Below are positions 12,698 to 52,940 of a stretch of DNA of 59,522 bases, in pieces. Below the pieces are notes generated by a model. That model ran no database searches. It saw only the letters and a program-made list of their open reading frames with translations, and was not told the origin of the DNA. The number at the start of each line of letters is the position of its first letter. The stretch's first letter is position 1. The translations under genes were made by a program, and so were the position numbers. The DNA comes from Actinomycetota bacterium (GTDB taxonomy: Bacteria; Actinomycetota; Thermoleophilia; Solirubrobacterales; 70-9): NCBI GenBank assembly GCA_018268695.1, contig JAFDWD010000005.1:1-59522 (forward strand), in the 5' to 3' direction.

Positions 12698-15600
12698 ATG
12701 AAAGTGAGGCAGGTAGGGAAATATCTTACGCACGAACTCATCGGTGAGGGATCCTTTGGAAAGGTGTACCGAGGGGTGGACCCCACCACTCAAGAAATTG
12801 TGGCCCTGAAGTTCATTCTAAGGAAGGGCAAAAACCGGAAAGAGCTTGAAGGTCTCCGCCAGTAAATCGAGATCCTCAAAAAACTCAAGCACGAGAACAT
12901 TATCCAGCTCAAGGACCACATCGAAACCCAAAACGAGATTATTCTGGTGACTGAGTACGCCGGTCGTGACCTGGCCTCCATCTTGGAAAAGCAGCGCCGG
13001 TTGAAGTCAGAAGAAATCAGGCACTACCTTAGACAGATAGTGTCGGCGCTCTCGTACCTGGACCAGAGTCGCATTGTGCATCGAGACCTCAAACCCCAAA
13101 ACATTCTCATCCGAGACGGAATTGTGAAGTTGTGCGACTTTGGATTCGCGAGGAAGATGTCGCCAGCTACAATTTGCCTGCACTCGCTCAAAGGCACGCC
13201 TCTCTACATCGCTCCTGAAATCATCAGTTAAAAACCGTACAACCACAAGATTGATATCTGGTCGTTGGGAATCATTCTGTATGAACTTTCAACAGGAATC
13301 CCACCTTTCCATGCCGATACGTACTACAAGCTGCTGCCGAAGATCCTCCACGACAAGGTCAAGTACCCCAAGGACATGGACGTTGAGCTGAGGGAGCTTA
13401 TCGAGGGCATGCTGCAAAAATCACCAGGGAGTCGTTACGACTGGTAGCAGATTAATACGCATCCGTTTCTGAAGGGAATCCCAGTCAACAACAGACTGCC
13501 GCTATCGTAAGTCTCGGACATTAACAACCGAGGAGACTCGCAACTTGAGAAGGATTTTCCTTTGGATGCAGACGTGATGAAACCCAGCAATCTCGCCAAC
13601 CACCAAAACAGAGTCGAAATCGAATAACTCAAGCAGTATGAGGAAGACTTGAAGAACAATCGCATCAACGGCAAGGATCTGAAGTGCAACGTAATTTTCT
13701 ATCACAAGCTGGTATCCTTGTTTACGTTCTTCAGTAAAGGCGAGAAGGTTGGAAGGGACTGTCTGACGATTGCGTTCCGAGTGCTCACTATGCTCATTAC
13801 GCGAGTGAAACTGGACGTTGATCAACGCGAAGACGATATCACCAAGAAGAAGGACTTGCTAATGTCGGTGGTCAACCTAGTGCCTTGCGCCGAGGACGAT
13901 GAACTGCTTGCTCAGATTTACAACCTCATTGCCTATCTGCTCAAGAACAATTTTGATGCTGTGCAAGTCGATCACGAGCCAGCCGAGTCTGTAGTGGAGT
14001 TCACGCAAAGCGTCCTCCAAAGGGAGAAGCTTGCCCAGCCCACACTCATCAACCTGCTGAAGTGCATTGGAATCCTCGCCAACCAAGCTGTGCTCACGTT
14101 GGCTTCTTCCGAGGAGCTTCTGAAGCTGGTCCTGCAAATGAGGCTGCTGACTTCGATCGCCAGCAAGTACCAGCCAGAACGTGAGTACATAATTGTGCTG
14201 TAGTGCATCGAGAAGTTCATCCACCCACTGAAGGTCGATCAACCTTTCCTTCCGAAGATGCAGACTCTGGTGCACTCGTTGCGAGTCGACGCTGCGTACG
14301 GCTTTATCGAGAATGGGCTGATACCCGTCCTAGCGAAGGCGGTGGAGGGCTACACTCTTCAGGACATGGAATTCTTCTGGCACGTGTTCTACGAGTGCGT
14401 GAAGGTGTCTGGCGACTTCCGCAGAGCTGTGCTAGCTTGCAGGAACTGGCAGCAGCTGCACAACAAAAACAGGCAGTATTCAATGGGAGTCAACTACTGT
14501 CTCATGAAGGACGAAAAGCAGCAGCTGGTGAGTCTCGATAGCATCAAACAAGAGGTGACGCAGCCCGAATGGGCAGCAGAAAATGAGCTGTCCAGAACGT
14601 TCCAAATTGCCATACTGCACATGGCTCTGCTCAGCAAACCAGAGTCCAGACAAAGATTCGAGCTAAATAAGCTCCTTTTGCGAAGAGCAGGTGAGCTATT
14701 GATGGTGGACGACCTCAAGAAGACAAAGGCAGTCGAAACTGTTGAGGGATGGGCCTTCGGACAGCCATACTTCCGCTTCGACGACATCCTTTCAGACATG
14801 CTCGCGAGCATTTCATAACAGTAGAGAGCCTTTGACAAAGACAAAGAAATCCCACAGATCTGGGAGCAAACCAAGGTGTACGACAGCATCGTAAGAGTCA
14901 AGAATGGACTGATCAACTTGAGTACCGGGTCCTTCTGTCGCATACTGCCGCATCTGCTGGGCTACCTACGAGAAGGCAACAACAACAAGCGTCTAGTGGC
15001 GAGTCTCATCGACAGCCTGCCTCTAATCCTCAACGAAGAAGAGCTCATGAAAGTTAAGGAGGATCTTGGAGACGAGCAGCAGATAAACTTCCTCATTAAC
15101 TGCTTTTCGTTGATGCGCGAACTCTTCCTCCGCGACGAAAAGCGCATGACAGAATTCTACGGAAAGGCTGAGAGCCTCAACTTGCACAGACTGATCGTGT
15201 CTGACTATATGCTGACTGACCGGATGCTGGTGCACTCACTGCCTGTCTTGCTTAAGATCCTGCAGAAAAGCTCCGCTAACAGCAGTGCGCTCGACTATAT
15301 GGCCATTAGTGGGCTGCAACGACTCAAAAAGCTTGCTCTGCACTCCAACCCCGACATCGTGCTGGAACTGGTACAAATTGTATCTCACCTGGCACGATCG
15401 AAAGTGGACTACTACCCCAACATCGTCCAGATGGGAATCGTCGAGCACCTCCCTCGGTATCTAGCTTCGTCCAACGATATGGTCCGCGAAAAGACGCTGA
15501 ATCTGTTGGGTAACCTCGCGAAGCACAACACCCAGTTCTTCGATGACTTCGTCAAGTACCGAGTTATAGCCGCCATATCCACCACCGTTAACCCAAAGAG

Positions 15601-16048
15601 CGGCAACCACTAGAAGATTCTCAAGAACATCATCTACGCGATCGGCAACATCAGTTACTATAACGAACAGTACTTTTTGAGTTACCTTAGGTTCCGCGAT
15701 GACATTAGACCGCTTATACCGCACTTTGCGACCATCCTCAGCACAGAAGACGAGCATCTCATGAGCAATACCATCAGCACCCTGTCTAATCTCTTGCGGC
15801 ACAGCAATGCCTACCTGAAGGATCTCACTGCCAACAAGATCGTTCAGCGAATTCTCGACATCATCCGCGTTACGAAGAGTCAGAACATTCTCGTGTTCGG
15901 CCTCAACTTCCTTCAAAAGGCCGTGCAGTATCCCGAATTCGTTGGGCAGTTCCGAGAAGAAATCTTGGGAGTGGTCCGCGGGCTGTCGGTGGGCCCTTCC
16001 GAGGGCGAGGCCTCGAAAAAGCTCAAGAAGATAATGGAGAAATTGTGA
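12698..16048 (+). CDS. STK36: Fused/STK36 family kinase with helical repeats
   Basis: 1116 residues in one uninterrupted frame (UAR = E). Kinase domain at about 8-255: GEGSFGKVY, Lys38 in VALKF, HRDLKPQN at 128-135, DFGFAR from 147, GTPLYIAPE. The closest family is Fused: KLCDFGFARKMS and PYNHKIDIWSLG follow STK36 nearly word for word. TAA codons encode residue 56, aligned with the invariant alpha-C Glu, and residue 178, aligned with the Glu before RPY in STK36. The rest is armadillo/HEAT-like helical repeats, as in STK36. In ciliates and animals Fused acts in central-pair assembly of motile cilia. Confidence 0.93.
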
Positions 16049-16096
16049 GTGCACCGAACGGATTCTCGATTGACACGTCGATAAACTTAATTATAC

Positions 16097-16938
16097 ATGC
16101 TTTGGCTTCTAATCATATTGGTAAGTCTGAAAGCGTGTCTAGCAGACGACAAGCAAGTAATCAGCAGCTCAATCAAGCACATCACCGATGATACCTTTAC
16201 CAGTATAACTGGCGCTGGCAGACCTTTTAACGCGTCGAAGTAGAAGTTAAGCGCGGATTGGTTCATCATGTTCTATTCGCCAACATGTCCTCACTGCAGA
16301 GAGACCATGCCCCACTGGAACGATTTCGCGGATGCTGTGAAGTTCGGCAATGTTACAGTTCCAAAAGGCCTTGAGCTTGCAGTCGTGAATTGGTAGGTGT
16401 GATCTAAATCAGCAAAGACAATAAACAACTGTGCAAAGAGATGGGTGTGAAAGCATACCCTGCGTTTATCTTACTCCGACGTAACCACACGTCAGTCGTG
16501 TACAGCGAGGGCGAACGCACCAAATAAGAGTGGGTTAAGTTTGTTCAATCCCAGCTAAAGGAATCTGAAGTCAAAGGGTTGGGACTTCTTGAAGAAGGTG
16601 CTGATAAGGCGGCAGTTAGCAGCAATCCAAAAGCAGCGCCTAGCCTAACGAGTGTAAATAGCAGCGGTTCTCCATCAAAGAAGAACAAGTTAAAATAAAA
16701 ATCTAACCCCGAGGCTAATGAAACAATAGTAACCAAGAGTTGGAAGCGCATGACTGAGCTGTCTGCGGTAACGTTTGGTGTGATATAGTTCCAGTGGTTC
16801 TAGCTGCTAATAATTTTGAGCACGTCTGCAGGCATCGTATACCTGCTGTTTTTCGCGGAGGAGGGTCTTGAATTCAAACGGATAGATAACCAACGCCACG
16901 AAGAGATGCGGACGATAGGGTTGCGCGAATAACTATGA
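16097..16938 (+). CDS. Thioredoxin/PDI-like single-pass membrane protein
   Basis: 273 residues after removing a 20-nt intron at 16393-16412. N-terminal signal peptide (MLWLLIILVSLKACLA), thioredoxin fold with active site SPTCPHC (CxxC) at about residue 66, then CKDNKQLCKEMGVKAYPAF with the cis-Pro motif. A Ser/Lys-rich linker leads to a transmembrane helix (FQWFELLIILSTSAGIVYLL) and a short charged tail. This is the layout of TMX-type or PDI-like oxidoreductases of the ER, which form or rearrange disulfides. The CPHC site is the DsbA-like, more oxidising variant. ATTATAC lies directly before the ATG. Confidence 0.85.
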
Positions 16939-17012
16939 CTTTTGATCGGCATATAAGATATGAATGGAGTGTGCGACGATAGTCAGTATTTGCACATTCA
17001 TAACGAATCACA

Positions 17013-18482
17013 ATGACTCAGGAAGCACTCAAAAGAATTGAACTCATCTTCCAAACCGAAATAAAGATTCTCAAGTACCCCTACCCAGGTCTGTCTCATT
17101 TCTGTCTTCGCTCGCCTCGACAATTCCTCCGAGATTTCTTCGCTGCGCCCAACTGTCTCGAAGGACTCGAACGGCTCGATTTTATGAGGGTTGGAGGGCT
17201 GCCTCGCGTTGGCAACAACAACCTCCGCATGGTTTACCTTTGCATACTCATCTTGGCCTACGAAGACTCTTCCATGCGTCTGCTGAAACGAATAAAACAC
17301 ATTGCCTACGACGAATCGCAACCACTTGCCTACCTCAGCAGATAAGCAGTGCCTGAAGAGTTCCGCGGCTGCTACGAAGATAAACAGCTTCGAAAGCTGT
17401 TAGTGGAGTTCTTCCATTTGGTTGCTAACCGAAGAAGCGCTAATAAGGTCATTAGGTTTCTGGAGAGCCATCCGATCCTCGACTTTGCTTTTCAACTGCT
17501 ATTCAAACGTCTCTTCTACGGGAGGACGCCAAATAACGAGCTGTTCTCGACCGAAATCCAAACCGTCGATCTCATCGCAGTCCTATTCGAAAAGCTTGAG
17601 CTGAAGCCGGATATTTCTAACCGCAGGATGAGGATCGGCGAGTACCGCTACCTGGCCGAGGACGATTTTTACACCTACATGACCTATCATCGACAAGACG
17701 ATTTGGATATCGACTTCACCTAAGAAGACATGAGCAGCTCCGACAGCGAAGAAGAGAGCTACACCACTCGCACAACGATGAAGGTAGACAGCATGAAGGA
17801 GTCCCATTGCGGTTCGAACCAAACCAAAGTGACTGAGGAAGAAGATCCCGGAAGATGGAGCACCCCCGTGAAGCACGAAGTTCCTATGAGCCATTCCATG
17901 ATTCCAAATCGAGAAACAATGCAAGCAGAAGTAACATTGAGACAATTCAAGGGCTCAGCTGTTTTCGACAGCAAAAACAACAAAACAATAGGGGGACTCG
18001 AATAGTACGAGAGCAGATGCGGATAGATTAAGGATAAGCTAAGAAAGCTGGAGTCGGATGTCGAGCTTTACAACAAGCCAAGCGAAAAGATCAAAGACGA
18101 AAAGGAAGAAGGAACCATCAACGGCAAAATATTTCCGCTCTGTTTCAAAGAAAGGCAGAGCGAGCGCAAGTCGAGCGAGCACTTCGATACTTCGTTCTTC
18201 CAAGAAAAAGGAAAGAATTCGGCTGTTCGTCCAAGTTGCAACCAAACATCCACGTTCATTCGGTCGGGCGATCTTCCTCCGCGGCCACCTCCCAAAATCG
18301 AAACGAAGTCGAGCAAGGAACTCCTGAAGGAAACATCTGTCTTTAGAATGTCGTCGACTCTGGAACTCGCCAACCACTCGCACCATCGAACCAACTCGAT
18401 GGACGACCAGAACCCCAAGGGCGGTTCTTCCAGTCTCCTCTTAAAGGTCAACCCAAAGAAAATCATGGTCCGCAAAATATGA
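17013..18482 (+). CDS. Unknown protein, helical N-terminus and disordered tail
   Basis: 489 residues, no intron found. The first ~235 residues look folded and mostly helical (YPYPGLSHFCLRSPRQF, VYLCILILAYED, LLVEFFHLVANRRS, FAFQLLFKRLFYG). The remainder is acidic, then Ser/Lys/Arg-rich and probably disordered (EDMSSSDSEEES, RPPPKIETKSS). Four UAR codons are read as Glu. No family is recognised. It ends 37 bp before the stop of TGS1 on the other strand. The start is the first ATG of the frame; other nearby ATGs run into TGA. Confidence 0.75.
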
Positions 18483-18519
18483 TTTGCATTCCGCCTGTAT
18501 CTATTCTAGTTGGGTGGGA

Positions 18520-19539: not shown

Positions 19540-19548
19540 CCCGCAACT

Positions 19549-27291: not shown

Positions 27292-28585
27292 ATGGCCTAC
27301 AAGCAGACTGCTTTCGGGCCGACCAACTTCGGCGGTGAAGCCAAGATGGGATTTAGCAGTGTATCGAAGCAGAACCTTTTCTACGGAAATCAACGTACTT
27401 TGCGGGGGATGTAGATATGCGCGAGGAGAGCCAGATGCACCACCTCAGCGAAATCGACAACATCTTGGAAGGCGAGCGCAACAAGTTCCGAGACGTGAAG
27501 ATCCGCATGGAAAGCGACCTCTAGAACGAAAGGCGCGTGCGGCTGTAGTTCGAAAACAAGCTGATCAAACTCAAGGACGAGTTCAGTCGCAAAGATTTAG
27601 AGATGTCTGAGGTGGAGTTCAAGCTGAACGCGATAGCACACCAGAACCAAGACCTCCAGATCGAGAACGAGAGGCTGAAGGGCGAGCTCCAGCGCATGCA
27701 GGACATCTACAGCAATAAAATACATGCGTTGGAGACCCAGCTAACCATTGACGGCAAGAGCCTCGAGGATACCACCTCCTTCTACGCCAAGGAGCTCGAG
27801 AAGTTCAAGCGAGAAGGGCAGGAGTACGTCGAAACGCTAACTTTTGAGTACGAACGAAAGGTCAAGAACCTGGAGGAAAGACTGAAGGTGGCCGAAAACA
27901 GCCGGAAGGACCTGGGCATGGACAACAAAAGACTCAACGATCTGCTGAACAACAACAAGATGTCATACGAGCAGGAGCTGCGGGACACGATCAGCCGGGT
28001 TCGTGACGAAGAAAACAAGAAATACGTGTTCCTGAGCAAGTCTAGCGAGCAGAAGCTGAAGATGAGTCAGGATGCACAAGACGCCCTCAACAAAAAAAAC
28101 CTGAACTTGTTAAAGGTCATTCAGGAGCGGGAAAGACAGATGCAGGAGCTCGAAAACGGCCAGAACGTCGAGAAAGCCAAGCTTCTTCAGGACATTGCCG
28201 ACCTCAACAGCAAGAACAACCAGCTTAACTTCATGCTCGACAAGCTCCGCAACGACCTCAACGCCAAGAATGCCATGATCGATCGGTCGGTTGGCGAAAG
28301 CGGTCAGGAAGCAGTGTACCTGAAGCAGCAGCTCGACAGCAAAAAGCAGGAAGTCGAGGTGCTCAACCAGACGATAGCCCAGATGGAGCAGCGGTTGATG
28401 CACGCGAATGCAGAAGGCGAACGCCGGAAGCTGGAGCAGCTGGAGCGACAGCGCTTGCTGGAGCTGGAATGCCTGAAATACAAATGTAATAGTGGATTGA
28501 CTTAGAAAAGTACGACAAGCTGTGCGCCATGCTGAGCAACAAAATCAACTAGACAATAACGCACGTGAGCTACAACCGGCCCTGA
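27292..28585 (+). CDS. Coiled-coil protein
   Basis: 417 residues with two 20-nt introns, 27395-27414 and 28486-28505. Removing the second one creates a TAA codon across the junction, which is read as Glu in KYKEKYDKL and keeps the heptads. The first ~35 residues are not coiled (MAYKQTAFGPTNFGG), the rest is one long coiled coil (EIDNILEGERNKFRD ... MEQRLMHANAEGE). No family is recognised; a ciliary or basal-body role is guessed from composition. It starts 53 bp after the PAF-acetylhydrolase stop. Confidence 0.82.
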
Positions 28586-30794: not shown

Positions 30795-31049
30795 ATGTCT
30801 TCAGTGAAGCGCAACCAACCGAAGCAGGGCTACCCGCCAGATCTTGTGAAGTACGTGGGGAAGAAGCTACGGCTCAAGATCAACGCGGGAAGGGAGATTG
30901 AAGGCATCGTCATCGGAGTGGACGGCTTCATGAATCTTGTGGTGGATAAGGCCATCGAGATCAGCGGAACCGAGCACCGCGTGCTTAACAAATCAGTCAT
31001 CCGAGGAAATTCTATCCTTATGTGGGAACTGCTGGAAAAGGTGGAATGA
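30795..31049 (+). CDS. SNRPG: Small nuclear ribonucleoprotein SmG
   Basis: 84 residues, no intron, no UAR. Sm fold with Sm1 (LRLKINAGREIEGIVIGVDGFMNLVVD) and Sm2 (SVIRGNSILMWELL, the IRGNSI motif). SmG is one of seven proteins forming the ring on U1, U2, U4 and U5 snRNA in the spliceosome. Length and motifs match the family, so the start is secure. TTTATAAG lies 9 bp upstream. It is fitting next to other splicing genes here (TGS1, ZMAT2) although no shared regulation is visible. Confidence 0.95.
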   Translation: MSSVKRNQPKQGYPPDLVKYVGKKLRLKINAGREIEGIVIGVDGFMNLVVDKAIEISGTEHRVLNKSVIRGNSILMWELLEKVE

Positions 31050-31167: not shown

Positions 31168-31628
31168 TCATTTGTTGGTCAGCTCGAAGTCGCTGATCTC
31201 TCGTTCGATGCCGCTCAGCTTGTGGAAGGCCACGAGGAAGCGGTACAGCACGAAAGTCGCGAACAAAGTGGAAGCCGTGAGCATGAAGTTGCGTTCGGCC
31301 ATGTAAAACTCGCGCGACTGCTTGTAGAGGTTGAGGTAGTCCACCTTTCCCTCTGCGAGGGCGTCAATCTTTTCTGAGTGAGCCAGGAAGTACGTGTGCT
31401 GAGGATATCTCGGTACTGGTAGTAGGTGTTGATGGAGTCGATCAGCACGATGAGGTTGATGAGCATCATGCCGTAGAACAGGAACTTCATCCAGAAGTTG
31501 AGGTGGATCTTGTCCCAGACCCGGAAGAACATCCTCCGGATGAACTGAGGAATGAAAAACACAAGAAGCACGCAGGAAGCCACGATGCCGATCAGGTAGT
31601 AGAAGAGCAGACCGTAGATGATTCTCAT
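31168..31628 (-). CDS. BAP31-like ER membrane protein
   Basis: 146 residues after removing a 20-nt intron at 31374-31393. Three transmembrane segments (YYLIGIVASCVLLVFFI, FLFYGMMLINLIVLID, FMLTASTLFATFVLYRFL) with the segment LYKQSREFYMAERNFML between second and third, where BAP31/Yet3 proteins carry a related fRaqRNlYiagf stretch. These proteins sit in the ER and help membrane-protein export and quality control. The C-terminal coiled coil of animal BAP31 is cut to about 15 residues. Start ATG follows GATTAAAATATCCA. Confidence 0.8.
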
Positions 31629-31745: not shown

Positions 31746-34700
31746 ATGCTCAAGTAGCTCCTGCCGCTTTGCCTGTTATTGGCAGCCGTCAGTGGTTCCT
31801 GCACCACCGGACTCTTTTGGAATCCTCTCAACAATATGTGCGTCCAAGGTACTTGCCATCCTTATTCAGTTTGTCCGTGGACCTCCCCCAACCTCTATTA
31901 CGCTGATCCCTCCACCAACAGCTGCGTAAAGACCTGTCCCTCCACGCCAAGCCTTTACGCTAACGACCTTACACAAACGTGCGTCTCGACATGCCCTTGG
32001 ACTGCCGGGGCTTACACCTACTACGACGACGTCTACAGAAAGTGCACATTGGGTAGAGCTTAAAATTATGCAGCCTGTCCTGCATCTCCAGCCACATACG
32101 CTTACAACGCCACGACCTACGGCAGCTGCGTCAAAATTTGTCCAAGCGGACTGTTTGCGCAGGACAGCACGAGAACTTGTGCGGCTACGTGCCCGAACTA
32201 CTACTTCGTGAACTACACCGCCAACGAAACGGTGAGGATGTGCGTAGCAATCTGCCCAAATAACACCTTTGTGAACGGCACTGCAAACTATTGTGTGCTC
32301 GCGATAAGTATCGGTTTGCTTAATTTAGACTGCCCAGCTGGTCAATACGGCGATCCCATCAACCAGATCTGCACAGCCAATTGCCCGGGAACGGTTTCGA
32401 TACAAATGTACGCGGACACCAACCCGAACGTCAAGATGTGTGTGTATGTGTGTCCCAATGGCTACTACTCTCAAGTCACTCCCAGTCGCACCTGCGTGCA
32501 GACATGCACGTCCAGCTACATCAGCCTCACCACAAAATCCTGCGAAACGGTCTGTCCAGTGGGCACCTACGCATAAACAAGTCCGATTGCGCAGTGCGTC
32601 ACAAGCTGCAGCGGTGGACTTTTTGCTCAAGACTCGCCCACTCGCATCTGCACAGCAAGTAAACAGTATGCTATTTAGACTGCCCATCGGGGACATGGGC
32701 TGATTCGACCACGTATAAGTGCGTCACGAGCTGCCCGCCTGGATTCTTTGCCGACAGCACCAGCGCAAACTACGTCTGCAACACCGTCTGCAGCAACACA
32801 AGCGAATTCGGGCATCCACTCACTCGGACCTGCGTGCCGGTTTCCGGCTGTGCCGCCCCTTACGTGTATGCTGACAGCACGAGTCGGCAATGCGTCACTA
32901 TTTGTCCTGTATCGGCGTCGACTTACGGCAACAACGGTACATGGACTTGTTCATTGACCTGCACAGGTTCGTTTCCATTGAAGGACCCTTCCACTCAGAC
33001 ATGTGTTGCTAACTGTCCTTCGAATCCTTCTCTGTACGCAGACTCCGTGATTTCAGGGTCGTGTGTCACGGTCTGTCCGACCATCTACTATGCGGTTGAG
33101 TCGAGCAGAACCTGCCAAACAACATGCCCGTCGAGCTTCTATGCTGAGCCGGTTTCGAAGAAGTGCGTGTCCAACTGCCCGACCGACCCGAACATCATGT
33201 ATTTTTCTTCTGGCACCTGCGTCTCTACATGCCCGGCTTCGACCTTGGCAGACCCTACAACGCGCAGCTGCATTACGACTACTTGCCCGTCGAACCCAGC
33301 CTACTTCGCAGAAGGAGTCAAGTGCGTCAGCCAATGTAGTTCAGGACTCTTCGCGAACACCGCAACAAGAACGTGCGATGCGACCTGCACTGGCAGCTAC
33401 TACGCAGATAGCAGCACAGGCAGGTGCGTTACTGTGTGTCCCACATCTCCATCCCTGTTTGCACAGGACTCGCCCAACATATGCGTGAGTTCCTGCCAGA
33501 CAGGTTGGTTCAGTGACAACAGCACGAGGAAGTGCGTGCAAACCTGCAATACCACTGTTGGCTATTTCGCTTATACGCCTCTCAAACTTTGCGTGCTGGT
33601 GTGTCCTGGCGTCTACTTCAACAATCCCAGCGACAATACGTGCGTGACTGCCTGCCCAAATGTTACCGCTGCTACCCAGTGGTTCGCGGACAATACCACG
33701 AAGTACTGCGTGCAAAACTGTCCCGACTACTACTTTAAAAGCATCGGGCTGGGACAGTGCGTGCAAACGTGCGAACCGCAGTATGCCGACGAAAGCATCA
33801 GAACGTGCGTGTCTACGTGCAACAGCACCTTGAACCTTTACCGCGACAGCACAACCTGGCGCTGCGTTTCGCTCTGTCCTCTGAACACCTACGGAGACTA
33901 CTCTAACGCTGCTGACAAAAAGTGTGTAACTGTTTGTCCCAGCGGCTGGTACAGCGATAACTCAACGTGGACCTGCGTCCAAAGCTGTCCATCAGTTCCG
34001 AGCTACTACAAGGAAACTCACCTAGGGCAGTGTGTTGCCGTCTGTCGCGTCTAGGTTTCCTAGTTCGCTTTGGACGTGGGCAGAATCTGCGTAACCGACT
34101 GTCCAAATGACAACTTTGCCGACAACTTCACTCGGAGATGCCTTGCCAACTGCCTTGTTGTTCCGTCCACCTACCGGTATAACGAAACCAGTGCTGGGTC
34201 TCCCAACTCCTCGTGTGTTTAGCAGTGTCCGATCGGGTACTACGGTGATAATAGCACCAGAAACTGTGTGAACCCTTGTCCAAGCAACCCCGATTATTAC
34301 GGCGATGATCTGTCTAGACTTTGCGTCACGGAATGCCCGTAGACCTCAACGACAATCTACTACGCAGATGGATTTAGCGCAACGAGACTCTGCGTTGACA
34401 CCTGCCCAACATTTCCGTCGACGATCGGAATGACTTACCGAGACAAACTTTCGCGAAGGTGTGTCGACGTGAATTCGTGCACCGGCGAGCAATTTTCTGA
34501 CAGTTCGACAGGCGATTGCGTTAGTAAATGCCCAAGCACCCCGTCAATGTTCGGAGAACTGCCTATCAAGCAGTGTGTCGTGGACTGCTCGCGAACCAAC
34601 CAGACCTATGCAGAAAATGAAACGCGGCTTTGCTTAAAGACCTGCCCTGCCAACAAATTCGCCGATAACGACACGCAGACTTGTGTGCTCAAGTGTCCGA

Positions 34701-37700
34701 GCGCGCCGACTGTTCCAAGCACCCAACCGACCTATGGCGACAGAACCACTAACAAGTGTGTGCTTCAGTGTCCAGCGACTCCAGCGATTCTCTTCGCGGA
34801 CAATTCAACCCAGGAATGCGTGGCTGTCTGCCCAGCTGGAACCTACGGCAGGTTAGATACGCGTGTCTGCTAGGTGCCATTGAACTGCACTACCGGCACA
34901 TTCGCTGATCCCTTCACTCAAAGATGCGTGGCTAACTGTCCAGGAACCCAAGGCACATATGCCAACAACGCAACGCAAAAGTGCGAAACTGCTTGCACCG
35001 GACCACTCTTCGCTGATAACTCTTCTTGGGCCTGCGTATCTCGGTGCAATTCAACTCCACCCTACTACGGCTACTTGAACAAATGCTTGACGGCGTGCCC
35101 GAATAACACTTACGCCGACAACCAAACTCAGACGTGTATCTCATTGTGCCCGAGCACTGCTCCATACAATACCTATGCTGATCCCACTTCTCAGACCTGT
35201 GTGCTTGTGTGTCCCTTCAATTACTACGCCGATGCAAGAGCCGGGTACAGAATTTGCGTGCAGATGTGCCCAGAAGGATGGTACGCAGATGATTCGACCA
35301 AGTTGTGCGTTGCGCAGTGTCCTCAATTAGCAAATTTGAGCTATACCTACGGTGAAAACGTTACTAATCGGTGTGTGTATGTCTGCCCCAACGGGACATA
35401 CGGCTAGAACGTCACAACGATGTGTATGTCGGCTTGTCCAGGGCCCAGCTTTGCCGATCCCAGTGTTCACGTGTGCGTAAGTGTGTGCGCCGCTATTCCT
35501 AACCTTTACGGCGATTCTTCAACCAACTCCTGTGTACTTGTCTGCCCCTCATCTCAAAACACGTTCGCAGATAACTCAACTAGGCTCTGCGTTCCAACTT
35601 GCCCTTTTTCGCAGTCAACCTTCGCGGATCCTTTGACAAGGCGTTGTGTGCTGACCTGCCCCGTTTCAGCCTTCACGTTTGCAGACAACGAAACGAGATC
35701 GTGCGTCGGAATTCATAGTTGCCGATTTAATTCCTCCTACAAGAGCTACTCTGACAACTCGACTTTGAGGTGTGTGACGACATGTCCTTCCACGCCGCCG
35801 TACTTCGCAGACGACTCGACTAAGACATGCGTTGAGCTTTGCCCACAGAGTCAAAACACTTACGCGGAAAATGTAAGCCGCAAATGCCTGCCGATCTGCC
35901 CTGCAGGACAGTATCTGTATGCAGACCCGACAGTTGAGACATGCGTCACTTACTGCCCGGGAGGATACTTCGCGGACAACCACACACAGACATGCAACCT
36001 GGTCTGCTCATACGTTATCGGCGTCATCGATTCGTTCGGGTACTCTGGAGATCGGACGTGCAAAACTACTTGCCCGGTAGGTTGGTACGCTCAGAACAGC
36101 TCGAGACAATGCGTTCAGAACTGTCCAATTAACGAATACGCCGACACGCATCTTCTGAGGTGCGTGCAGAACTGCAATTCTGCTCTGCCGGAGTATGCCG
36201 ACAACACTACGAACTTGTGTGTACCGGTATGCCCCTCTGTGCCGGATATGTTCGCCAGCAACGGTAGCAGCTTCATCTGCGTGCTCACCTGCCCCCCTGG
36301 ATATTGGGCAAGTGACTACCGTCGCGATTGTGTTCAGCTGTGTCCTGCCGCAGTCAACTACTTCTCGGACAACAGCACAGGAAGGTGTGTTGCGCAATGT
36401 CCCATCAGTCTGTTCACCTACGCGGACAATTTCACAAGAACATGCTCACTGAGCTGCCCATGGATAAGTCCTAGTACGCCTGCTGTCACTGTAAATACGT
36501 TTGCCGACGATTCGACGAAATCTTGCGTGGTGACATGCCCGTCGACTCCTTGGACATACGCAGACAATTCCACTAAAAAGTGCGTGTTCCGCTGCCCAAC
36601 CGCTTCCTATGGAGAAAACAACACCCGTCAGTGCGTGGCCAACTGCTCTCAGTGGAGCAGCTTTGCAGACAACCTTACCAACTTCTGCGTGGCGGTCTGC
36701 CCCAAGAACTACTTTGCCTAAAATTCGAGCAGCACATGCGTGTCTGCATGCCCGCCTGGCTCTTTCGCCGACAACAGCACGTGGAGATGCGTGGCTCAGT
36801 GTCCCACGAACCCTGCTCTCTACGCGGACGTCACGAATCAGGTCTGCGTCATCAACTGTGCGAACAGCTACTATGGCGACGACAGCACGCAGACATGTGT
36901 GCAATCGTGCACAGACCCACTGTACTTTGCCTACCAACCCACCAGGCGATGCATACGCGACTGCCTGTACCCGTACTTCGGCCAGCAGTCTACGAAGACA
37001 TGCGTGCTGAACTGCGTACCGGGGATGTACAAGAACATGACGACCCACTTGTGCACGGCCTGCCCTTCGGTCTGTCAGACATGCTAAGGAGAATTGCTGT
37101 GCCTAACCTGCATCGCTCTTCCGCTGTACAACTACTATCTCTACAATGGAACGTGCCTTAGCGGATGCGGCAGCGGCACTCCAACCTCTTCGACGCCGTG
37201 CATTTCCCTGTGTCCAAGCAACACTCTCGGAGGAACCATCACATACGCGAACCCGCTATCGCAGAGCTGCGTGTAGATTTGCCCGCTGGGCTACTACGGT
37301 CTGAACACCACGCAGTACTGCGTGCAAACATGCCCAATCAACTACTACGCTTCGACGGTGACACAGCGCTGCGAGTTGTGCGTGAACGGCTGCAACAACT
37401 GCACCAACGCTACTTTCTGCTTCAGCTGCTACGCCGGCTACCTTTTCAGCAACAACCTCTGCATCCAGATGTGCAGTTCGACCCTCAACTTCTACTACAA
37501 CGGCGCCTGCATTGCCGCCTGCCCGTCCGGCACCTATCTCATGAGCGACCAGATTACCTGCAACAACTGCTCTTCGACGTGTGCTACCTGCAGCGGCTCT
37601 GCAACCAACTGCGTGCAGTGTGTTGGTGCCTTCCTATACAACGGGCAGTGCGTCAGCAAGTGCCCCACCAACTACTACTCGGACTCGAGCCTGCAGTGCC

Positions 37701-39694
37701 AGCCGTGCACCTCCACCACTCCACAATGTAGCGTGCAGCCGCTCACGTACACTCTGCAGACCTTCAACCAAAACAACACGCTGTTCGGCATCCTGACGTT
37801 CAACCGCTAGGTGGTTCTGAACATCAGCCAGATCAAGAGCATCATCAACATTACGTTGAAGGGCATTCCTTCCGACAGCTACTCGTGGGACGCCGTTAGA
37901 CTGAACACCACGAGCTTCAGAATCAATATCAACACAACGGTGTCCATCGCCTAGGAGAAGTTAGAAGCCAGCCCGGAAGCGCCAGTTCAGCAGCAATACT
38001 AGGCGGCGGTGGACACGAGTTCAGTCGATGAAATCACGATTGTGCTGGACATCCTCCAACCCAACGCCATCACGGACACGTCAGGCAATGTCGTTCAGAC
38101 TTCCTCGGCTGAGGCTCCGATGCCTACCTACGACTACATTTCTCCCGACGTCCTGAAAACCTCCTAATCCATCGGCACCTTCGCCAACGGACTCGGTTGG
38201 TTCGCCCTTGCCATTCTGCTGGTGCTCATGCTCAAGGGCTCCTATCCAATGCTCCTCGTACAGGAAGTCTTTCAAATTGTCTACTTCCACATCTTCATCG
38301 TCGCCGGATTGCCTTACAACTTCACTACCTTCCTGACGAAGCTCTCGATTCTCAACTTCCAGTTCCTGCCAAACCTATTCAAGCTCTACGTTGTGCCGAG
38401 CAGCTGGGTCAGTCCGGCAACTCCCATCCAATACAAAACAGTCGTCGGGTAGATCACGTTCATGGTGAGTGCTGGCCATTACTTCACGCTTCTCATCATC
38501 TACCTTATCGTCGGTCTCATTGTAGCCATCCTCAAGGAAAAGCTGTGCCAATGCTGTGAAAAGGTCAGGGTTTTCGCGAAGAGGCAGTACCTCAATCGGT
38601 TCAAGTACGGAGCCATAAACGAGTTTGTCTGGTTCAGCTTCATGACGTTCGGCTTCTTTTCGATGTTCCAAATGAAAGACCTGAAGCCTACTGAACCCTG
38701 GCAATACGGCAACCTAGTGCTTTCGTTTCTGTGCTTCGCCTTGTTCTTGGGCTTCCCCATACTCGTCATTGTCAAGGCGCTCAAGTACCGGAAGGACATG
38801 AGCAAAGTCCCACGAAAGTTCGCCTTCATTCAGGGCGACCAATCTTTTATTCCTTACCAAATTCCGTTTAGGTACTTTAGGAAGGTGCTTCTCTGCATCT
38901 TCTTGGTGATCGGAACTATTGAGATTCAGGTACCAGCCATGATTGCAGCTAACTTCCTCATCTTCGCCTTCTACCTCTTCTTCAAGCCGTCCAAATCCAG
39001 CTTCACAAACTGGATCAATATCCTCGTGGAGCTCTGCTACCTCGGTTTGGAAGTGATGCTCATGATATTCGCCAACGACAGCAACATGTCGACTGAAACC
39101 AAACTCACATACGGCAAGGTCATGATTGCCTTCGCCTTAATCGCCATCCTTCTGGCCTTGGTTTGGACGGTCTGGCAGTTCTTGCTCTTCCTTTACGAAT
39201 GGAAATTCATCCGCGACATCATCTTAGAAGCTCAAATCGCCAATAAGATTTACCCTGAGCAGGACAATCTGAAGGTGGAGTTCGAAAAAGACGCAGAGCA
39301 GCACGAAGAAAACCTGTTGTCGGAAAACAACTCGATCTTAAATCCCATCAAGGAAAGGAAATCCGAAGACGACAACATCCTTGGAATTGAGCACCAGTAT
39401 GCGATGGAAGAAAAGTTCGTTGTGTACGACAAAGGCAAGTCATCGATTGAAAAGGAAGGCCTCGGATTATTCCCCAGGGCTAACAAAGCTGCTTAACAGC
39501 AGGAAGAAGACGGCAGCTCCGTTGACCTCCGAATGAACTCATCAGACGGGTTCGAAGAAGTGCATCGTCCGCTCCGTGGAATCCGTAAGACCCGGAAGGA
39601 ACCAAAGAACGAAAAGTTGAAGAGGTAGGACAAGAAGGAGTCGCAAACAGGCAAGCACAAGCTTTGGCAGGATATCGATCTGGACGAGTATTGA
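31746..39694 (+). CDS. Giant Cys-repeat multi-pass membrane protein
   Basis: 2628 residues with introns 32053-32073, 32308-32328 (21 nt each) and 32659-32678 (20 nt). Signal peptide MLKELLPLCLLLAAVSG, then about 2000 residues of some 80 short repeats of the type CVxxCPxxxYADNSTxxC. A growth-factor-receptor-like Cys region follows (CNNCTNATFCFSCYAGYLFS), then a spacer and about eight transmembrane helices (from about 38180 to 39210), and an acidic cytoplasmic tail. Cys-repeat ectodomain plus multi-span end is common in ciliate surface proteins. UAR codons fall on acidic repeat positions (YA-E/D, YGENVT). Role as receptor or surface coat is inference. Confidence 0.88.
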
Positions 39695-44318: not shown

Positions 44319-45083
44319 TCAGTATCGAACTTGTGTAAGTTCCTTACGCAACTTCTCGATTATAGCTTCCACGAGCGCGACCGCGTGAGATTCATTTTGT
44401 TCGCGTTCCTTCTTCATTCGGTACAGGCGGTCCTTCACCGACTGATTGATCACCTTTAGATTGGCGAGTATTCTGCTCTCACCCTCCTGTCTGTCGACTT
44501 TATCCTGCTCGTTCTCCTCTCGCATTTTGGCCATCTGCTCTTTAAACTCCGTAAAGATCCTCTCCTCGACCTATCGCCGAGTTGCACTCTCCAGCGAAAT
44601 TTCCTCCCTGAGCCTGCGTCAACAGCACGGCTACCTCACAATGTCTTCCTGCATAATCGAGTCGATGTAGCCGTGGCTCTGTATCGCAGATCTTTTGTTC
44701 ACTTCCGCGGCCAGCAGGTCCAGCTGCGAGTTCAGCTGGTAGGATATACGCTTCTCCACCTAGATTCGGTCGCGCCGGTTCGACTACAGCAACTTCAAGC
44801 AATTCTTTTCGACGTTCACGATGTGCTTGTTGATTTCGCCTTCTGCTCGCTCCCTGCGGCTCCGGTTGTCGACCACAGCCTCCGTGAGGGTTCTCAGTTT
44901 GCTCAGCACAACATCGAACTTGGCGGATTTGCTTTCTGCCAATTCTTCAAGCCGATTCTCGAAGCTGCTAATGAAGGAAGACACTAGGCGATAGCGACTC
45001 ACCTTGTCGTCCTAGACGTTCTCTTGGAGGAGGTTGAGCTTCTCGAAGACCTTGCAGACTCTTTCTTTGTACTATTCGCTCAT
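44319..45083 (-). CDS. SF-assemblin / striated-fibre protein
   Basis: 247 residues after removing a 21-nt intron at 44614-44634, which contains an in-frame TGA. Nearly the whole protein is one coiled coil with the helix rhythm of SF-assemblin and beta-giardin: a short head (MSEEYKERVCKVFEKLN), evenly spaced Arg/Glu heptads (FENRLEELAESKSAKFD, RRDRIEVEKRI, LREEISLESATRREVEER) and a short tail. SF-assemblins build striated basal-body rootlets; in ciliates they form kinetodesmal fibres that keep basal bodies oriented. Length fits. The 28-bp gap to the next gene on the same strand is typical here. Confidence 0.75.
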
Positions 45084-45840: not shown

Positions 45841-46674
45841 GGAGGAGGCGCTTAGCTATCATAACAACGCGAGACTCAGACGCACCATTAAGCTTGCTGT
45901 AGCAGGCTTTGCGCTCTTCAAAGCCGCGTACGCTGGTGTGATGTACTTCCAAAGCAAGCGTGAAATTGCTTACCGCAAGGAACAACTCAGCAAGCCCGTG
46001 TACGAACTCAAGGACGACGAGCTCATCAACCCACCCTGGAACCGGAGCAACCTTGATAGCTGGCTCTATCGAAGAGGTACTGCGCGGCTGATGTAGTGAA
46101 AATCACGGGGAGGCCTATCCACAACAGGGCTTGTCTGGTACCAAGAGAGGTTTATCGTCGGCCCGGCTACGAATACGTGGTGCCTCTGGTTACGAAAGAA
46201 AGCAAGGCCGGAATAACCCAGTACGGGTACATGTTCAGCAAGGGGTTCATGCCAGCTGAGTGGAAAGACCCCGGAGACAGGATGCGCATCGAAGAGACTG
46301 ATCCTCAAACCTTCGAGGGATTTGTCAGCCAGCTTGATGAGCTGAAGGAGCACGGCTGGATGGAGGGGAACTCTATTCCTCTCTATAAACGCGAGTTCAC
46401 GCATTCGAACATGCAGGACTTCGCTGATGCTTCGGGGTTGAAGAATAAGGAGCAAGTTGCATTGGCTCTGATCGAACGACTAGAGGAGGGAAGCCAACTG
46501 GATGAACGCGATCCTGTCCGCTACGCCCACAACGCCGAATACCATTACGAGTACCCGTATCCAAAGACGCTGTCGGGTGCCCTTCAACTCGCGAAGATGC
46601 CATGGAACTACCGAAACGATTCGCTGTTCTGGTCGACGGTGGCGGTGGGTGCTTTCGCCTCTCTGGTGCTGTGA
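45839..46674 (+). CDS. SURF1: SURF1, cytochrome c oxidase assembly factor
   Basis: 271 residues after removing a 20-nt intron at 46077-46096. N-terminal transmembrane helix (AVAGFALFKAAYAGVMYF), C-terminal transmembrane helix (LFWSTVAVGAFASLVL), and between them SURF1 blocks: LYRRVKITGRPIHN (family YRPVKVxG), CLVPREV, and YGYMFSKGFMPAEW (family vLVNRGwvP). SURF1 lies in the inner mitochondrial membrane and helps insert heme a into Cox1. The intron sits exactly inside the YRRVKI block, so only the spliced frame gives the motif. The gene implies respiring mitochondria. Confidence 0.82.
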
Positions 46675-46704
46675 TTCGTCGAAAGAAATAAACATACATC
46701 TTAT

Positions 46705-47665: not shown

Positions 47666-47707
47666 CTCCTTTGTACAACTACAAAATAAATTGAATCCGT
47701 TGACGAC

Positions 47708-48412: not shown

Positions 48413-48446
48413 GATCGACTGAAGGAGAGGATATGACATGCATAGA

Positions 48447-49484
48447 TCATATAAGGGAGAATTAATTGTCGGAGGGCGGCACCTCTACGTTCAGAAAGAG
48501 GTTGACGTCGTCGATCAAGCTGGGTGTCTTCTCTTGTGGTTCGATGGGTGGTTCGGGTGTATTTGTTGGCAACTTCTCGTCTAATTCATCTTCCGACTCT
48601 GCTTTTATCTCTGCCTGTCGCATCGAATCTGTTTTCTTGGACCTTCGGCGCTTTTGATTGCAGTTGTAGCTCTCCAACAGGTCTTCCATGACTTTGGATT
48701 CGCGCTGATTCCGAAGCATTGACAGCAAATTCTTCACGAGTCTCTCTTTCGGTGTCTTATGCTCCGGGTCGCTTTCGATTTTCAGGCGGATTTCATTTTC
48801 GAGGCAAGCAACTGGAGAAGTGTCCCTGGGTTCCTCTTCCTCGTCGAGCATCATCTGATTGCCAAAGAGCATGAACAGCATCAGCTTTTCAACCTTTTTA
48901 TCGCTCTTCTCAAGATTCTTCTCGACGCGCTTCCACAGCTTCGAGTTTTCGCTGCGAAGATTGTGATTGTCGGCAACAAGGTGCTTAATGATGAGCTCGA
49001 GCTCCTTCTGCTTTTTGGTCATTTCCGCCAGCTGACTCGCCAGCTGTTCCGTTTTCGTGGAATTGTAGTAGTCGAGATCCTCACGGTCCTCGACGCTTCT
49101 GCGCTTGATATTCCGGTATTCGTTTCTGATGTAATGGCTGTGGTTACTTGAAGTTGCGCCGGAAATGTTAATTCATATACACGTGTTAGCCCTCAGTGCA
49201 GCGCACCTTGTTAAAATTGTACATGTTCAACTGAGTTTGCCCCGAAGTACCTGCCGGATGAACGAAGAGAAGTTCCTGTGCTTGAAGAAGACAGGTAGGA
49301 CAGCTTCTGTGAGACGCGTAACGTTCTTGATAGAGAAGGCCTCCCCGTCCGACGTCCAGCTGATAATTTCATTGTACTCATCGTTCTGCACTCAAAGAAG
49401 CAGTACTTCCAAGATCTGTGCAAGCTTCTCCACGAAGGAGGACATACCGTTGTGGCTCTTACGTTTGCGAAAGCCGCGCCTCAT
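48447..49484 (-). CDS. Heat shock transcription factor
   Basis: 324 residues with three introns: 49386-49406 (21 nt, in-frame TGA), 49231-49250 (20) and 49126-49147 (22). All three interrupt the DNA-binding domain, which reads FVEKLAQILE, EIISWTSDGEAFSI, FFKHRNFSSFIRQLNMYNF and NEHFRRNFK after splicing; this is the HSF winged helix with recognition helix NFSSFIRQLN. A TAA codon encodes the Glu of NEHFRR, invariant in HSFs. A coiled-coil trimerisation part (LADNHNLRSENSKLWKRVEKN) follows, then an acidic C-terminus. Role: trimer binding to nGAAn elements of stress genes. Confidence 0.92.
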
Positions 49485-49663
49485 CGTTCAAAACAGCGAT
49501 ATTATTTATATTTATCCAGACTCTTCCCAAAAAATTTCTGGACTAGCTTAAATATCGTTCGTCATTACAAGCCGATAGGTGGAACACTGAAAAAAGCTCG
49601 ATATCAAAAGTGAGTACATCGGCCATACTATTATTTCATGTCGCGTCATTCGGGGCAGTTCAG

Positions 49664-49670
49664 TTATAAT
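49664..49670 (+). promoter_or_regulatory. TTATAAT element before the lipase gene
   Basis: TTATAAT 9 bp upstream of the ATG at 49680, in the 195-bp divergent interval with HSF. I looked for clear GAA/TTC heat-shock-element arrays there and saw none. Confidence 0.4.
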
Positions 49671-49679
49671 TGCTGTGTA

Positions 49680-50671
49680 ATGGATCGCAGTCAGGCAGAC
49701 AAACAATTGGCATATCGATCTCTTCCTTCTAAATTCAAGAAAAATCGCATCGAGGAAGCACAGCAGCTTCCCCAAGATCTGCGTGAGAATCCCCAGGGGG
49801 CCTGCCGCTATCCAGAGGAAAACTTCATCTCAATGTTCGTAGGAGCAAAAAAAGACATCAGGCTTGCGACGTACCGCTACGTAACATCCGACAAGCCAGT
49901 CGCAGTCGTGTTCATCTTCAACGGTCTCTACTACCACACCAACCACAGTGCGCACATTGCCAAGTAGCTCGCAGCGAACGGTTACGTTGTTGTCGGGTTT
50001 GACTATCGCGGATTCGGTCGTTCTCAAGGAGATAGAGGGGAAGTAGAGTCCTTCGAATCGTTGCTTGGAGATTGCAATTAATTCGTCGCTCTTGTCAACG
50101 ACCTTTACCCAAGTCTTTCGAAGTTCGCGATTGGAGCGTCGCTGGGAGGACTGCTGGTATACCATCTTTGTCTTCGACAACCAAACAGATTCACGGGGGT
50201 AGTGCTTGTGTCTGCAATGATCAAACCAATGGTGGGCTCACTGCTGTGCACAATTGCCGCCACAATCAGCAAGCTGCTGCCGAAGGCGAAGTGTTTAGCA
50301 CCGATCCGAGGAGTCGCAACCAAGAACAAGAATGTATCCGACGAACTCCATAGAGACCCCGACTATTTTTCTGGTGAGGTGTCTGCGAACACATACAAGA
50401 TAATCCTCAACGCACTGAACGAATGTTCGAAGACTTTCGGAAAGTTTTCGACGTCTGTGCTCATCGTACAAGGCGGCCTTGACAAGCTGGTGTCGCCCGA
50501 CGGAGCCTTCGAACTGCTGGACAAGTGCCAATCGAAAGACAAATAGGTATGTGTTGGTTAAGGCAGCTTCTGTTTTATGAAAACATGTGGCATGACGCCT
50601 TTCACGAAGAGTAGATAGCTGAGTTGCTGCCTCGCCTGGTCGAGTGGCTGCGCAAAAGAATTCCGGCATGA
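49680..50671 (+). CDS. Monoacylglycerol-lipase-like alpha/beta hydrolase
   Basis: 323 residues after removing a 20-nt intron at 50547-50566. Family blocks: AVVFIFNGLYYHTN (oxyanion strand, with Asn-Gly in place of His-Gly), GYVVVGFDYRGFGRSQGDRG, nucleophile elbow AIGASLGGLLVYHL (GxSxG, Ser), a cap region, VLIVQGGLDKLVSP with the catalytic Asp, and ENMWHDAFHEE with the catalytic His just after the intron. This order is that of monoacylglycerol lipases, which release fatty acid from monoglycerides. AKELAANGY contains a TAG read as Glu, where the family is usually polar. Cytosolic. Confidence 0.87.
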
Positions 50672-50693
50672 TTTTAAGTTCGCTGTGAAGTAC

Positions 50694-52385
50694 TCAAGTT
50701 GCACGAACATCACCGTTGGCCCGTTTGCTCTTTCCGAACTCCGTGCTGATGCTGTGGATCGACAGCTTGCGGTAACGCTCCAGCGCCCGGTTACTCTGCG
50801 AAATCGCCTGGCTGATCCGGTTGCGCAGTTCAGCGTCGTTGCTCCGCTTGTCCTCCTGAAAAGGCTTGCTCGGAGACTGGTCGTTGGAGCCGCGAGGCGA
50901 CACAACGTTGTTTCGGCTTCGGGATCGGAAGTCGTCTTCGCGGTGACGGTGCCGGTCAACGTCAGTCGGTTGCTGCACCTGCGAAACAACGGAGGGCTTG
51001 GTGTTGGAAGGACGTGCTCCGGCTCCATCATCGAGCACCCCAAGAAACTCATGCACGTAGCCCTCGCTGCTATTGAAGAAGCTTTCGAACTCGCTTTTCT
51101 TGAGTTCCTCGAAGTCGATCTTGTTTTTGGGCTCCTTCATCTTGGACGATCTGCTCATGGTGTCGCTGTTCTTGCTGATGAGGGGCGGCCCGGAATTGAT
51201 GGCAATGCTGTTCACGACAGCGCTCTTCTTGACCATTGTGCTGCTGTTGCCGTCGATGTTAGTTTCGATGGTGGTGGTGACTCCCGATACGGCCACGACC
51301 TTCTGCTGCGTCAGGAGCTGCTGCTGCTTCTGCAGCTGCATCTTCGTGGTATCGGTACTCTCCTTGCGGTTGTTCTCCTCCTCGCTAGCCTCCACGATAT
51401 TTTCTAAGCCGACCTTGAACGACCGTTTGTGGGGATTCCTCACGCTCTTCGGGGACTCCACCACCGGCAGCTTCTTGGCGATCGGCGAGAAGTAGCTTAC
51501 TTCGCCGGAGTACTTGCGGTTGTCGGGCTTGTGCTTGTTCCAGCGCTCCTTGACCGATTCACGCATCTGCTCCGACTGTTCGGACTGCTCCGTGTTGGAC
51601 TTCTTGATGGTTATCTTGAGCTCTCCCAACCGCATCTCGATGTGGTTGAGCATCTCCATCGTGTTGCTCTTGAGCAGCTGCGACTTGGGACTGGTTTTGT
51701 TGGAAGTCACTGACTTCTCTCGGTTCTGGGTGTTCCTCACCGACTCCTCTGGAGAGTTGATCGAGTCGGTTCTGCGGTAGACCCTCGCCGTCGACGAAGG
51801 TGACGCGGCCTTGTACAGCACGAACTTCTGCTCGCTGTCGCTGGCGAACTTGCTCCTTCTTTCGGTGGCGGCGCTGTCGATCCGGGCCATCAGTGTGCGG
51901 TGGATGCGGTTGATCTGCGAGATGTAACCGTTTTGGACCTCCGCTAACTTTTAATGCGTAACTTTAAAATCGAGCGAAAGATAGTACTTGAGCTACTGAT
52001 GCCGGTCCAAGCCGATGCAGTTCAGCGTAAATTCGGTCTGTAGTCGGTTTTCGAAGAGGTACGCGGACAAGTAAACCAGCTTCATTTTCAGGTGCTCCAG
52101 CTTTTCCACCGAAAGTTTGGACAGTTGCGACTGCACTCCAAAGGGAACGAATTCGTACAGTAGATGGAAGCGTCCTTCCTCTTCTAACACCTTCACGAGC
52201 CGCACAATGTTGGGATTGCTGAATTTCTTAGCCTGCTCGAACCGTTCCTTGAGCTGAGCATAAGTACTGGGACTGTATTCGATGATGCGACGGACGAAGA
52301 TGCGGGCGTCGGGAAGTTACTGCTGCTGCAGGGTGTCGAAGGGATAGCCCTCCGTCATGTCCACGATGATCTCCTGCGAAAGCAT
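50694..52385 (-). CDS. Pseudokinase-like fragment fused to a long tail
   Basis: 563 residues in one frame. Residues about 35-90 look like a kinase N-lobe fragment: a helix ERFEQAKKFSNPNIVRLVKV and strands RFHLLYEFVPFG, resembling alpha-C to hinge. There is no Gly-rich loop, no VAIK lysine, no HRD and no DFG, so it cannot be an active kinase as read. A helical part to about 170 follows (FENRLQTEFTLN), then ~390 disordered residues rich in Ser, Asn, Lys and Gln, with no UAR. It may bind a partner through the remnant lobe. Whether the resemblance is homology is uncertain. AATATAATTATT precedes the ATG. Confidence 0.78.
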
Positions 52386-52409
52386 AATAATTATATTGCG
52401 ACTGAACCA

Positions 52410-52940
52410 TCACGGCTCCTTCGGTACTTCTTCGTCCACTTCCTCCTCCTGCTCGAAGTCCTCTTCCTCGTCCGAGTTCTCCAACAATCTATTGTTGAAT
52501 GTCTTCTGCAGTGGCACCGAGGCAGAAGTAGCAATCACTGGTTCACCGTTGTCCTGCCGCTAGCGAACCATTTCGTCGTAGCTTCTCTGAATCTCCAGCT
52601 TCATCTTGTGTCGAGCCTATCTTAGCAAGGGCAGTACCAGCACATCGTTCTTGACTTCCTCCTCAACCTTCTTCAGGGTGTCCATTTGGGAGTTCAGCTT
52701 GAAGTGCTACACTGACTTGTACAGGTGGTCGAGACTGATTGTTTTCTTCTTCTCGGCAGTGCAGATTTCGTTTGCTTTGTTGGCGATTCGAGTCACATAC
52801 TCTAATTCGAGGGCGGGAATACCTTTCGCAATATGCAGAATGCCCTCCGTAAACTCAGTGCTGATCTTCGTCTTGCCGAGTTTCTCCTTCAAGTACGACG
52901 TCATCGTGGCCTTGGGTATTTGCTCGCCCTGTAGGTTCAT
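52410..52940 (-). CDS. DR1: NC2-beta (DR1) histone-fold transcription regulator
   Basis: 176 residues, one frame. Histone fold at about 8-85: IPKATMTSYLKEKL, YVTRIANKANEICTAEKKKTISLDHLYKSVEHFKL, where human DR1 has SEANEICNKSEKKTISPEHVIQALESLGF. The TAG codon falls exactly on the conserved Glu after the last fold helix (ALE in DR1, SVE here). NC2-beta pairs with NC2-alpha and binds TBP on promoter DNA, blocking or redirecting TFIIB. C-terminus acidic. Relevant here because promoters carry TATA-like elements a few bases from the ATG. Confidence 0.9.

Follow-up and report, generated by a model that had tools for sequence, protein, structure and literature searches.

We analysed a window of 59,522 nt (positions 1 to 59,522 of contig JAFDWD010000005.1, assembly GCA_018268695.1, deposited as Actinomycetota bacterium) for the meaning of its in-frame UAA and UAG codons (together UAR; TAR in the DNA), both of which had been proposed to encode glutamate in an earlier reading made from the letters (hereafter the sequence-only reading). 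The window is gene-dense, ciliate-like eukaryotic DNA with a G+C content of 0.43–0.55 per 2-kb step and about 50% overall, and it contains long open frames on both strands when TGA is taken as the sole stop. Gene models were built from codon usage, with short GT..AG introns allowed and ends forced to TGA. The 35 resulting model genes comprise 14,183 codons, including 76 TAA and 72 TAG in frame, and 599 GAA and 631 GAG. The 148 in-frame TARs are spread over 30 of the 35 models. They make up ~11% of UAR and GAR (GAA or GAG) codons combined (148/1,378), suggesting that UAR would serve as a routine synonymous Glu codon rather than as a site of rare read-through. Three parts of the models are doubtful: the C-terminus of 8552–10264, the start of a Cys-rich gene and a 50-nt intron in a cyclin gene. 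Genes that could be named by Pfam or PDB similarity encode a Fused-type kinase, a cyclin, a ribosomal L1-like protein, a cap-guanine methyltransferase (TGS1-like), a RINGv protein, a PAF-AH-like protein, an S33 lipase, a SURF1-like protein, an NC2-beta-like protein, HSF, SmG, centrin, a SET/Rubisco-LSMT-type protein and a second kinase, which from its sequence appears to be CDK-type. The features on which the codon assignments turn are as follows.

12698..16048, plus strand: Fused/STK36/TIO-type kinase with an ARM region (1116 codons, 5 TAA and 4 TAG in frame, TGA end)
12863..12865, plus strand: TAA at the kinase alpha-C Glu (Glu in 120/120 listed Fused homologs)
13229..13231, plus strand: TAA just 5' of the PY after the APE motif (Glu in 120/120 listed Fused homologs)
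13445..13447, plus strand: TAG in a non-glutamate column (Pro 119, Ser 1 of 120 listed homologs)
53813..55443, plus strand: gene for a cyclin-domain protein whose cyclin box contains TAA (Cyclin_N, 103.5 bits; includes the doubtful 50-nt intron)
54491..54493, plus strand: TAA facing Glu in five listed cyclin E1 chains
54743..54745, plus strand: TAA where the cyclin-box KLEE has its second Glu (Glu in five listed cyclin E1 chains)
56185..58143, minus strand: SET/Rubisco-LSMT-type protein (652 codons, 3 TAA and 4 TAG)
57172..57174, minus strand: TAG in an acidic column (Asp 15, Glu 11, Asn 1 of 27 SET homologs)
57736..57738, minus strand: TAA where Glu is the most frequent residue (Glu 11, Gln 4, Lys 3, Pro 3 of 27 SET homologs)
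30795..31049, plus strand: SmG gene, with TGA one residue beyond the end of SmG chain 3cw1_G
55581..56144, minus strand: centrin gene, with introns of 20 and 22 nt and TGA level with the C-terminus of caltractin 3kf9_A

The frame of the Fused-type kinase contains no TGA in 1,116 codons, where 16.7 would be expected from base composition, and the other two frames of the gene contain 36 and 23. The absence of TGA from a frame that nevertheless holds five TAAs and four TAGs indicates that the frame is real and that UAR is read through. A search with this protein gave 3,958 matches among 7,991 scored candidates, and alignment columns were taken from the 120 listed, which are mostly plant proteins and hence not independent events. 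The sequence-only reading had identified TAA 12863 as the alpha-C Glu of Fused and TAA 13229 as an STK36-type Glu, and the invariant Glu at both sites bears this out; Paramecium, Stylonychia and Percolomonas have Glu there too. When the codon at 12863 was left as X, the five listed PDB chains (ULK3, Ssp2 and three of ULK1) also had Glu at this position.

Further evidence on TAA came from other genes. Two of the three TAAs in the cyclin query lie inside the alignment, and both face Glu in the five listed chains, all of them cyclin E1, in agreement with the earlier assignment of TAA 54743 to the second cyclin-box Glu. The SET/Rubisco-LSMT-type protein, which perhaps comes from a ciliate-specific family, was compared in a word-limited search with 7,993 scored candidates, yielding 27 proteins at E 0.001; its minus-strand sites are named here by their high coordinate (57174 for 57172..57174). 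Glu leads at TAA 57738, and TAA 57219 faces Glu in eight and Gln in three of the 27 homologs, with eight gaps. Substituting residues for TAA in Pfam domains gave the highest score with Glu in the kinase (Glu 250.4, Asp 245.8, Gln 245.3, Lys 244.8, Tyr 243.7 and Leu 240.6 bits), in the cyclin (Glu 103.5, Gln 100.1 and eight others 96.3–99.9 bits) and, more narrowly, in the lipase (Glu 163.8, Gln 163.4, Lys 163.0 and Tyr 160.6 bits). In addition, we ran a Codetta-like decoding at four filters, adding up profile log-likelihoods across the Fused and SET columns; it called 51/59, 50/59, 52/59 and 50/55 sense codons correctly. TAA was decoded as Glu at every filter, leading Lys by 6.4 nats and Gln by 9.5 with five columns, and by 9.0 and 9.1 nats, respectively, with four reliable columns. 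The Fused columns, cyclin E, the Pfam scores and the decoding support UAA as Glu, as had been proposed, and the evidence weighs heavily against Gln and Lys at this codon.

For UAG, Glu is the best reading and the most likely one, on weaker evidence than for UAA. The best columns are acidic: besides TAG 57174, TAG 57198 faces Asp 8, Gly 5, Glu 4 and Arg 3, and TAG 56679 faces Glu 7, Pro 6 and Asp 3, of the 27 SET homologs. Glu is favoured over Gln by these three columns and by third-base usage, with the TAA:TAG ratio of 76:72 fitting GAA:GAG (599:631; p 0.54) and being unlike both CAA:CAG (208:467; p 3.8e-6) and AAA:AAG (302:809; p 9.6e-9). In the lipase domain, Lys, Ala, Asp, Tyr and Leu at TAG scored 0.9 to 4.9 bits under Glu. 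Decoding of all seven TAG columns placed Glu first, 0.5 nats over Lys and 1.8 over Asp; Lys fell 3.3 and 3.1 nats behind Glu with five and four columns. Another decoding run, with 7 + 7 columns, agreed.

We also scored codon context by a homology-free, naive-Bayes test on flanking residues, with the scored gene left out. Glu ranked first for TAA (76 sites) and, separately, for TAG (72 sites). In calibration with samples of 74 sites, Glu came first in 25/40 draws for GAA and 33/40 for GAG, and in at most 7/40 draws for each of eleven other codons tested. Glu won 597 of 1000 gene bootstraps for TAA and 587 of 1000 for TAG, and it still ranked first when possible-intron sites and two weak gene models were dropped (60 + 60 sites; 875/1000 reduced-set bootstraps for TAG). 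The context test is supportive of Glu, not decisive, and it weakly suggests Glu over Asp for UAG.

Several observations weigh against Glu at one or both codons. In the Fused alignment, TAG 13445 lies in the near-invariant Pro column (with Gln in ULK3 and Ssp2 and Asp in ULK1 among the PDB chains), TAG 14201 faces Ala in 109 and TAG 15611 faces Lys in 100 and Arg in 18 of the 120 listed homologs, and TAA 13625, beyond the kinase core, faces Arg in 82 and Lys in 35. TAA 13508, also beyond the core, faces mixed, non-acidic residues, and TAG 14822 and TAA 14816 each fall within an insert. The listed non-Fused chains (ULK3, Ssp2 and ULK1) have Gln, Gly or Ser at 13229, indicating that Glu there is specific to the Fused family. 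Among the 27 SET homologs, TAG 57585 faces Phe 8, Lys 5 and Tyr 5, and TAA 56472 faces Phe 13, Tyr 4 and Glu 3; these two sites and 13445 are non-acidic columns in well-aligned stretches. Pfam scores for TAG leave Glu and Gln unseparated in the lipase (Gln 164.0, Glu 163.8 bits) and the kinase (Gln 250.5, Glu 250.4 bits), and do not discriminate at all in L1 (92.5–92.7 bits across ten residues). The decoding reads CAA wrongly as Glu at all four filters. For TAG it ties Glu with Asp on five columns, puts Glu 0.5 and 0.2 nats behind Asp on four and three, and makes Lys level with Glu in the strictest, three-column set, so that the TAG columns leave Glu and Asp unseparated. The context test rarely calls true Gln codons Gln, and its Glu-over-Gln score for these codons (mean 4.7, standard deviation 5.7 for CAA; 1.7 and 5.4 for CAG) marks the values for TAA (8.1) and TAG (12.7) as coming from a weak test; in the reduced set, Glu won 478/1000 bootstraps for TAA, with a margin of 3.8 nats over Gln. 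The densities of TAR and Glu codons per gene were not significantly correlated (rho 0.25, p 0.15), and ARAGORN found no tRNA genes in the window.

The third standard stop codon, UGA, is a stop in this DNA. The SmG alignment runs to the final residue of 3cw1_G, followed one residue later by TGA, and the centrin continues for three residues past its aligned end, exactly as caltractin 3kf9_A does, before TGA. The earlier statement that every good gene ends in TGA is thus independently upheld for SmG and centrin, whereas elsewhere such ends were imposed by the gene models.

Taken together, we consider it about 90% probable that the window comes from the nuclear genome of a ciliate in which UAA and UAG are read as Glu and genes end at UGA (NCBI table 30). 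Glu with a UGA stop has been described for Campanella and Carchesium (PMC10553269), for Campanella and Vorticella (PMC6935857) and for peritrichs in general (PMC11687900), the codes of two peritrichs have been predicted (PMC4967479), and a single origin of UAR as Glu within Peritrichia has been inferred (PMC10553269). The code of the window is a further instance of this known peritrich-type code, as listed in table 30 for Campanella, Carchesium and Vorticella. The G+C content is slightly higher than that of seven sequenced peritrich genomes (25–46%; PMC12411067). Blastocrithidia likewise reads UAR as Glu, but there UGA is Trp and UAA also serves as a stop (PMC12153298); a code of this type was rejected because the Fused frame lacks TGA and TGA stands at conserved gene ends.

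Reading both codons as Gln, the commonest variant among ciliates (PMC10553269) and that of Tetrahymena and Paramecium (table 6), would equally reassign UAR and keep UGA as the stop. It draws on the Pfam tie for TAG in three domains, on Gln at SET columns 57738 (4/27) and 57219 (3/27) and, in some of the PDB kinases, at sites 13445 and 13229, and on the poor separation of Gln from Glu by the context test. We nevertheless consider it very improbable. None of the 120 listed Fused homologs has Gln at 12863 or 13229, and Gln at TAA costs 5.1 bits in the kinase and 3.4 bits in the cyclin; these columns, the Pfam scores and the decoding speak strongly against Gln for UAA. For UAG, Pfam is neutral, none of the 27 SET homologs has Gln at 57174, and the SET columns and a third-base ratio unlike that of CAA:CAG argue against Gln.

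A split code has a precedent in Oligohymenophorea sp. PL0344, where UAG is Glu and UGA a stop, as here, but UAA is Lys (PMC10553269); the other form, with UAA as Glu and UAG as Asp or another residue, gains from the fit of Asp to the TAG columns. Both forms seem quite improbable. Lys for UAA is ruled out by the 120/120 Glu at two Fused sites, a kinase Pfam score 5.6 bits worse and the decoding, while Asp for UAG lies ~13 nats behind Glu in the weak context test and 1.5 bits behind in the lipase domain, and the balance of UAA and UAG matches a single Glu family. Any in-frame stop could in principle be put down to a pseudogene, a sequencing error or stop read-through under the standard code. With 148 in-frame TARs across 30 of 35 models, a Fused frame free of the 16.7 TGAs expected, conserved domain sequence to either side of the TARs and invariant Glu columns occupied by TARs, this explanation is scarcely credible. 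Under Glu at both codons, by analogy with other ciliates, UAR would be decoded by tRNAs that carry UUA and CUA anticodons and accept Glu, and eRF1, restricted to UGA, would no longer terminate at these codons.

Relatives of the encoded proteins suggest that the host is a ciliate. The top-scoring Fused match is from Paramecium sonneborni, and three of the 27 SET homologs are from Paramecium, covering 98% of the query at 35–38% identity. The SET tree shows the query as a long branch adjoining 17 rows without a Paramecium label (support 85/83), and a clade of query and Paramecium was not rejected (p-AU 0.241); the query branch in the Fused tree (4.17) is too long for placement. Scans of genome and viral contigs with the SET alignment gave no confirmed relative. 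We infer kinship with peritrichs solely from the code, since no peritrich-named sequence occurs among the Fused and SET matches. The link to peritrichs made in the sequence-only reading therefore stands insofar as UAR as Glu with a UGA stop is reported for peritrichs only in the sources available, but peritrich ancestry of the host was not borne out by trees or matches. The position of the SET query beside the 17 rows, and not with Paramecium, is compatible with a G+C-rich ciliate outside Peritrichia, with ~20-nt introns and a second ciliate origin of UAR as Glu, which we regard as unlikely. If the host is not a peritrich, the window would bear on how often Glu gets chosen for UAR.

The remaining codons named in the sequence-only reading, which gave its two minus-strand codons by their low coordinate, lie in three further genes.

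52410..52940, minus strand: NC2-beta-like histone-fold gene with in-frame TAGs (PDB similarity, gene model)
52707..52709, minus strand: TAG facing Glu in NC2-beta 1jfi_B and Lys in 4wzs_B
48447..49484, minus strand: HSF gene whose three model introns measure 21, 20 and 22 nt, with TAA at 49186–49188 and 49168–49170
32717..39694, plus strand: large Cys-rich repeat protein in which TAG 35405 and TAA 36719 share an acidic column of the repeat

All six codons that it named are present (TAA 12863, 13229 and 54743 and TAG 35405 on the plus strand; TAA 49168–49170 and TAG 52707–52709 on the minus strand), and each lies in a long frame that only TGA closes; model ends were forced to TGA. TAG 52707 matches the proposed conserved NC2-beta Glu in one chain, but the Lys in 4wzs_B speaks against it. 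The HSF Glu proposed for TAA 49168, which goes back to plant HSFs, is not supported by the alignments: all three listed chains that reach the site have Asn (the other two of the five stop earlier), and the same three have Gly at TAA 49186. The Cys-rich protein contains at least 63 units of the form [FY]ADNSTxxCVxxCP, and the repeat column of 35405, a proposed Glu site, and 36719 is acidic, with Asp 37, Glu 7, Asn 6 and Gln 3 among the 63 aligned units; TAR itself accounts for two of these units. Overall, the earlier reader was right in substance: UAA as Glu is supported, UAG as Glu stands on acidic best columns, third-base usage and the weak context test while Asp and, in Pfam, Gln compete with it, and the Codetta-style scoring it had named as a check returned Glu for TAA at all filters but a near tie of Glu and Asp for TAG.

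The model introns are about 20 nt long, exactly 20 nt in 10 of 23 cases, and begin with sequences like GTACT. The centrin introns are backed by a gap-free alignment to caltractin. Examples, and one probable intron, are as follows.

49386–49406, 49231–49250, 49126–49147, 55968–55987, 55745–55766, 46077–46096, 31374–31393 and 27395–27414: short model introns
52617..52637, minus strand: probable 21-nt intron, fitting the intron pattern, whose 3' TAG mimics an in-frame codon

When GT..AG pairs across entire gene spans were tallied by length, no 20-nt peak emerged; a peak appeared only under a stricter pattern, which was drawn up once the model introns were known. The in-frame TAG at 52617–52619, counted in the models, is probably the 3' end of the 21-nt intron, and in ciliates with tiny introns such stretches, ending in TAG and keeping the frame open, could inflate UAG counts. 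Short introns are already known in ciliates, from Nyctotherus (21–29 nt; PMC2633312) and from Stentor and Paramecium (15–25 nt; PMC10553269); the available parts of the literature on peritrich introns yielded no intron length.

The window adds one more ciliate with UAR as Glu, and a 60-kb stretch was enough to decode UAA confidently, though not UAG. With table 1, 6 or 11, a gene caller would cut these proteins short or translate them wrongly. An Rfam scan of the window gave nothing at gathering scores, and the only tandem repeat is an 18-bp unit present in about two copies, with no telomere-like array. The TAR-rich gene at 7179–8885 has no solved relative at E 0.001. From its sequence, the C-terminal part of the Cys-rich protein looks like a multi-span membrane region. 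One further gene has in-frame TAG but no TAA.

44319–45083, minus strand: coiled-coil gene (5 TAG, 0 TAA)

No homolog of this gene was found at E 0.001 among 797 scored candidates; we take its product to resemble SF-assemblin.

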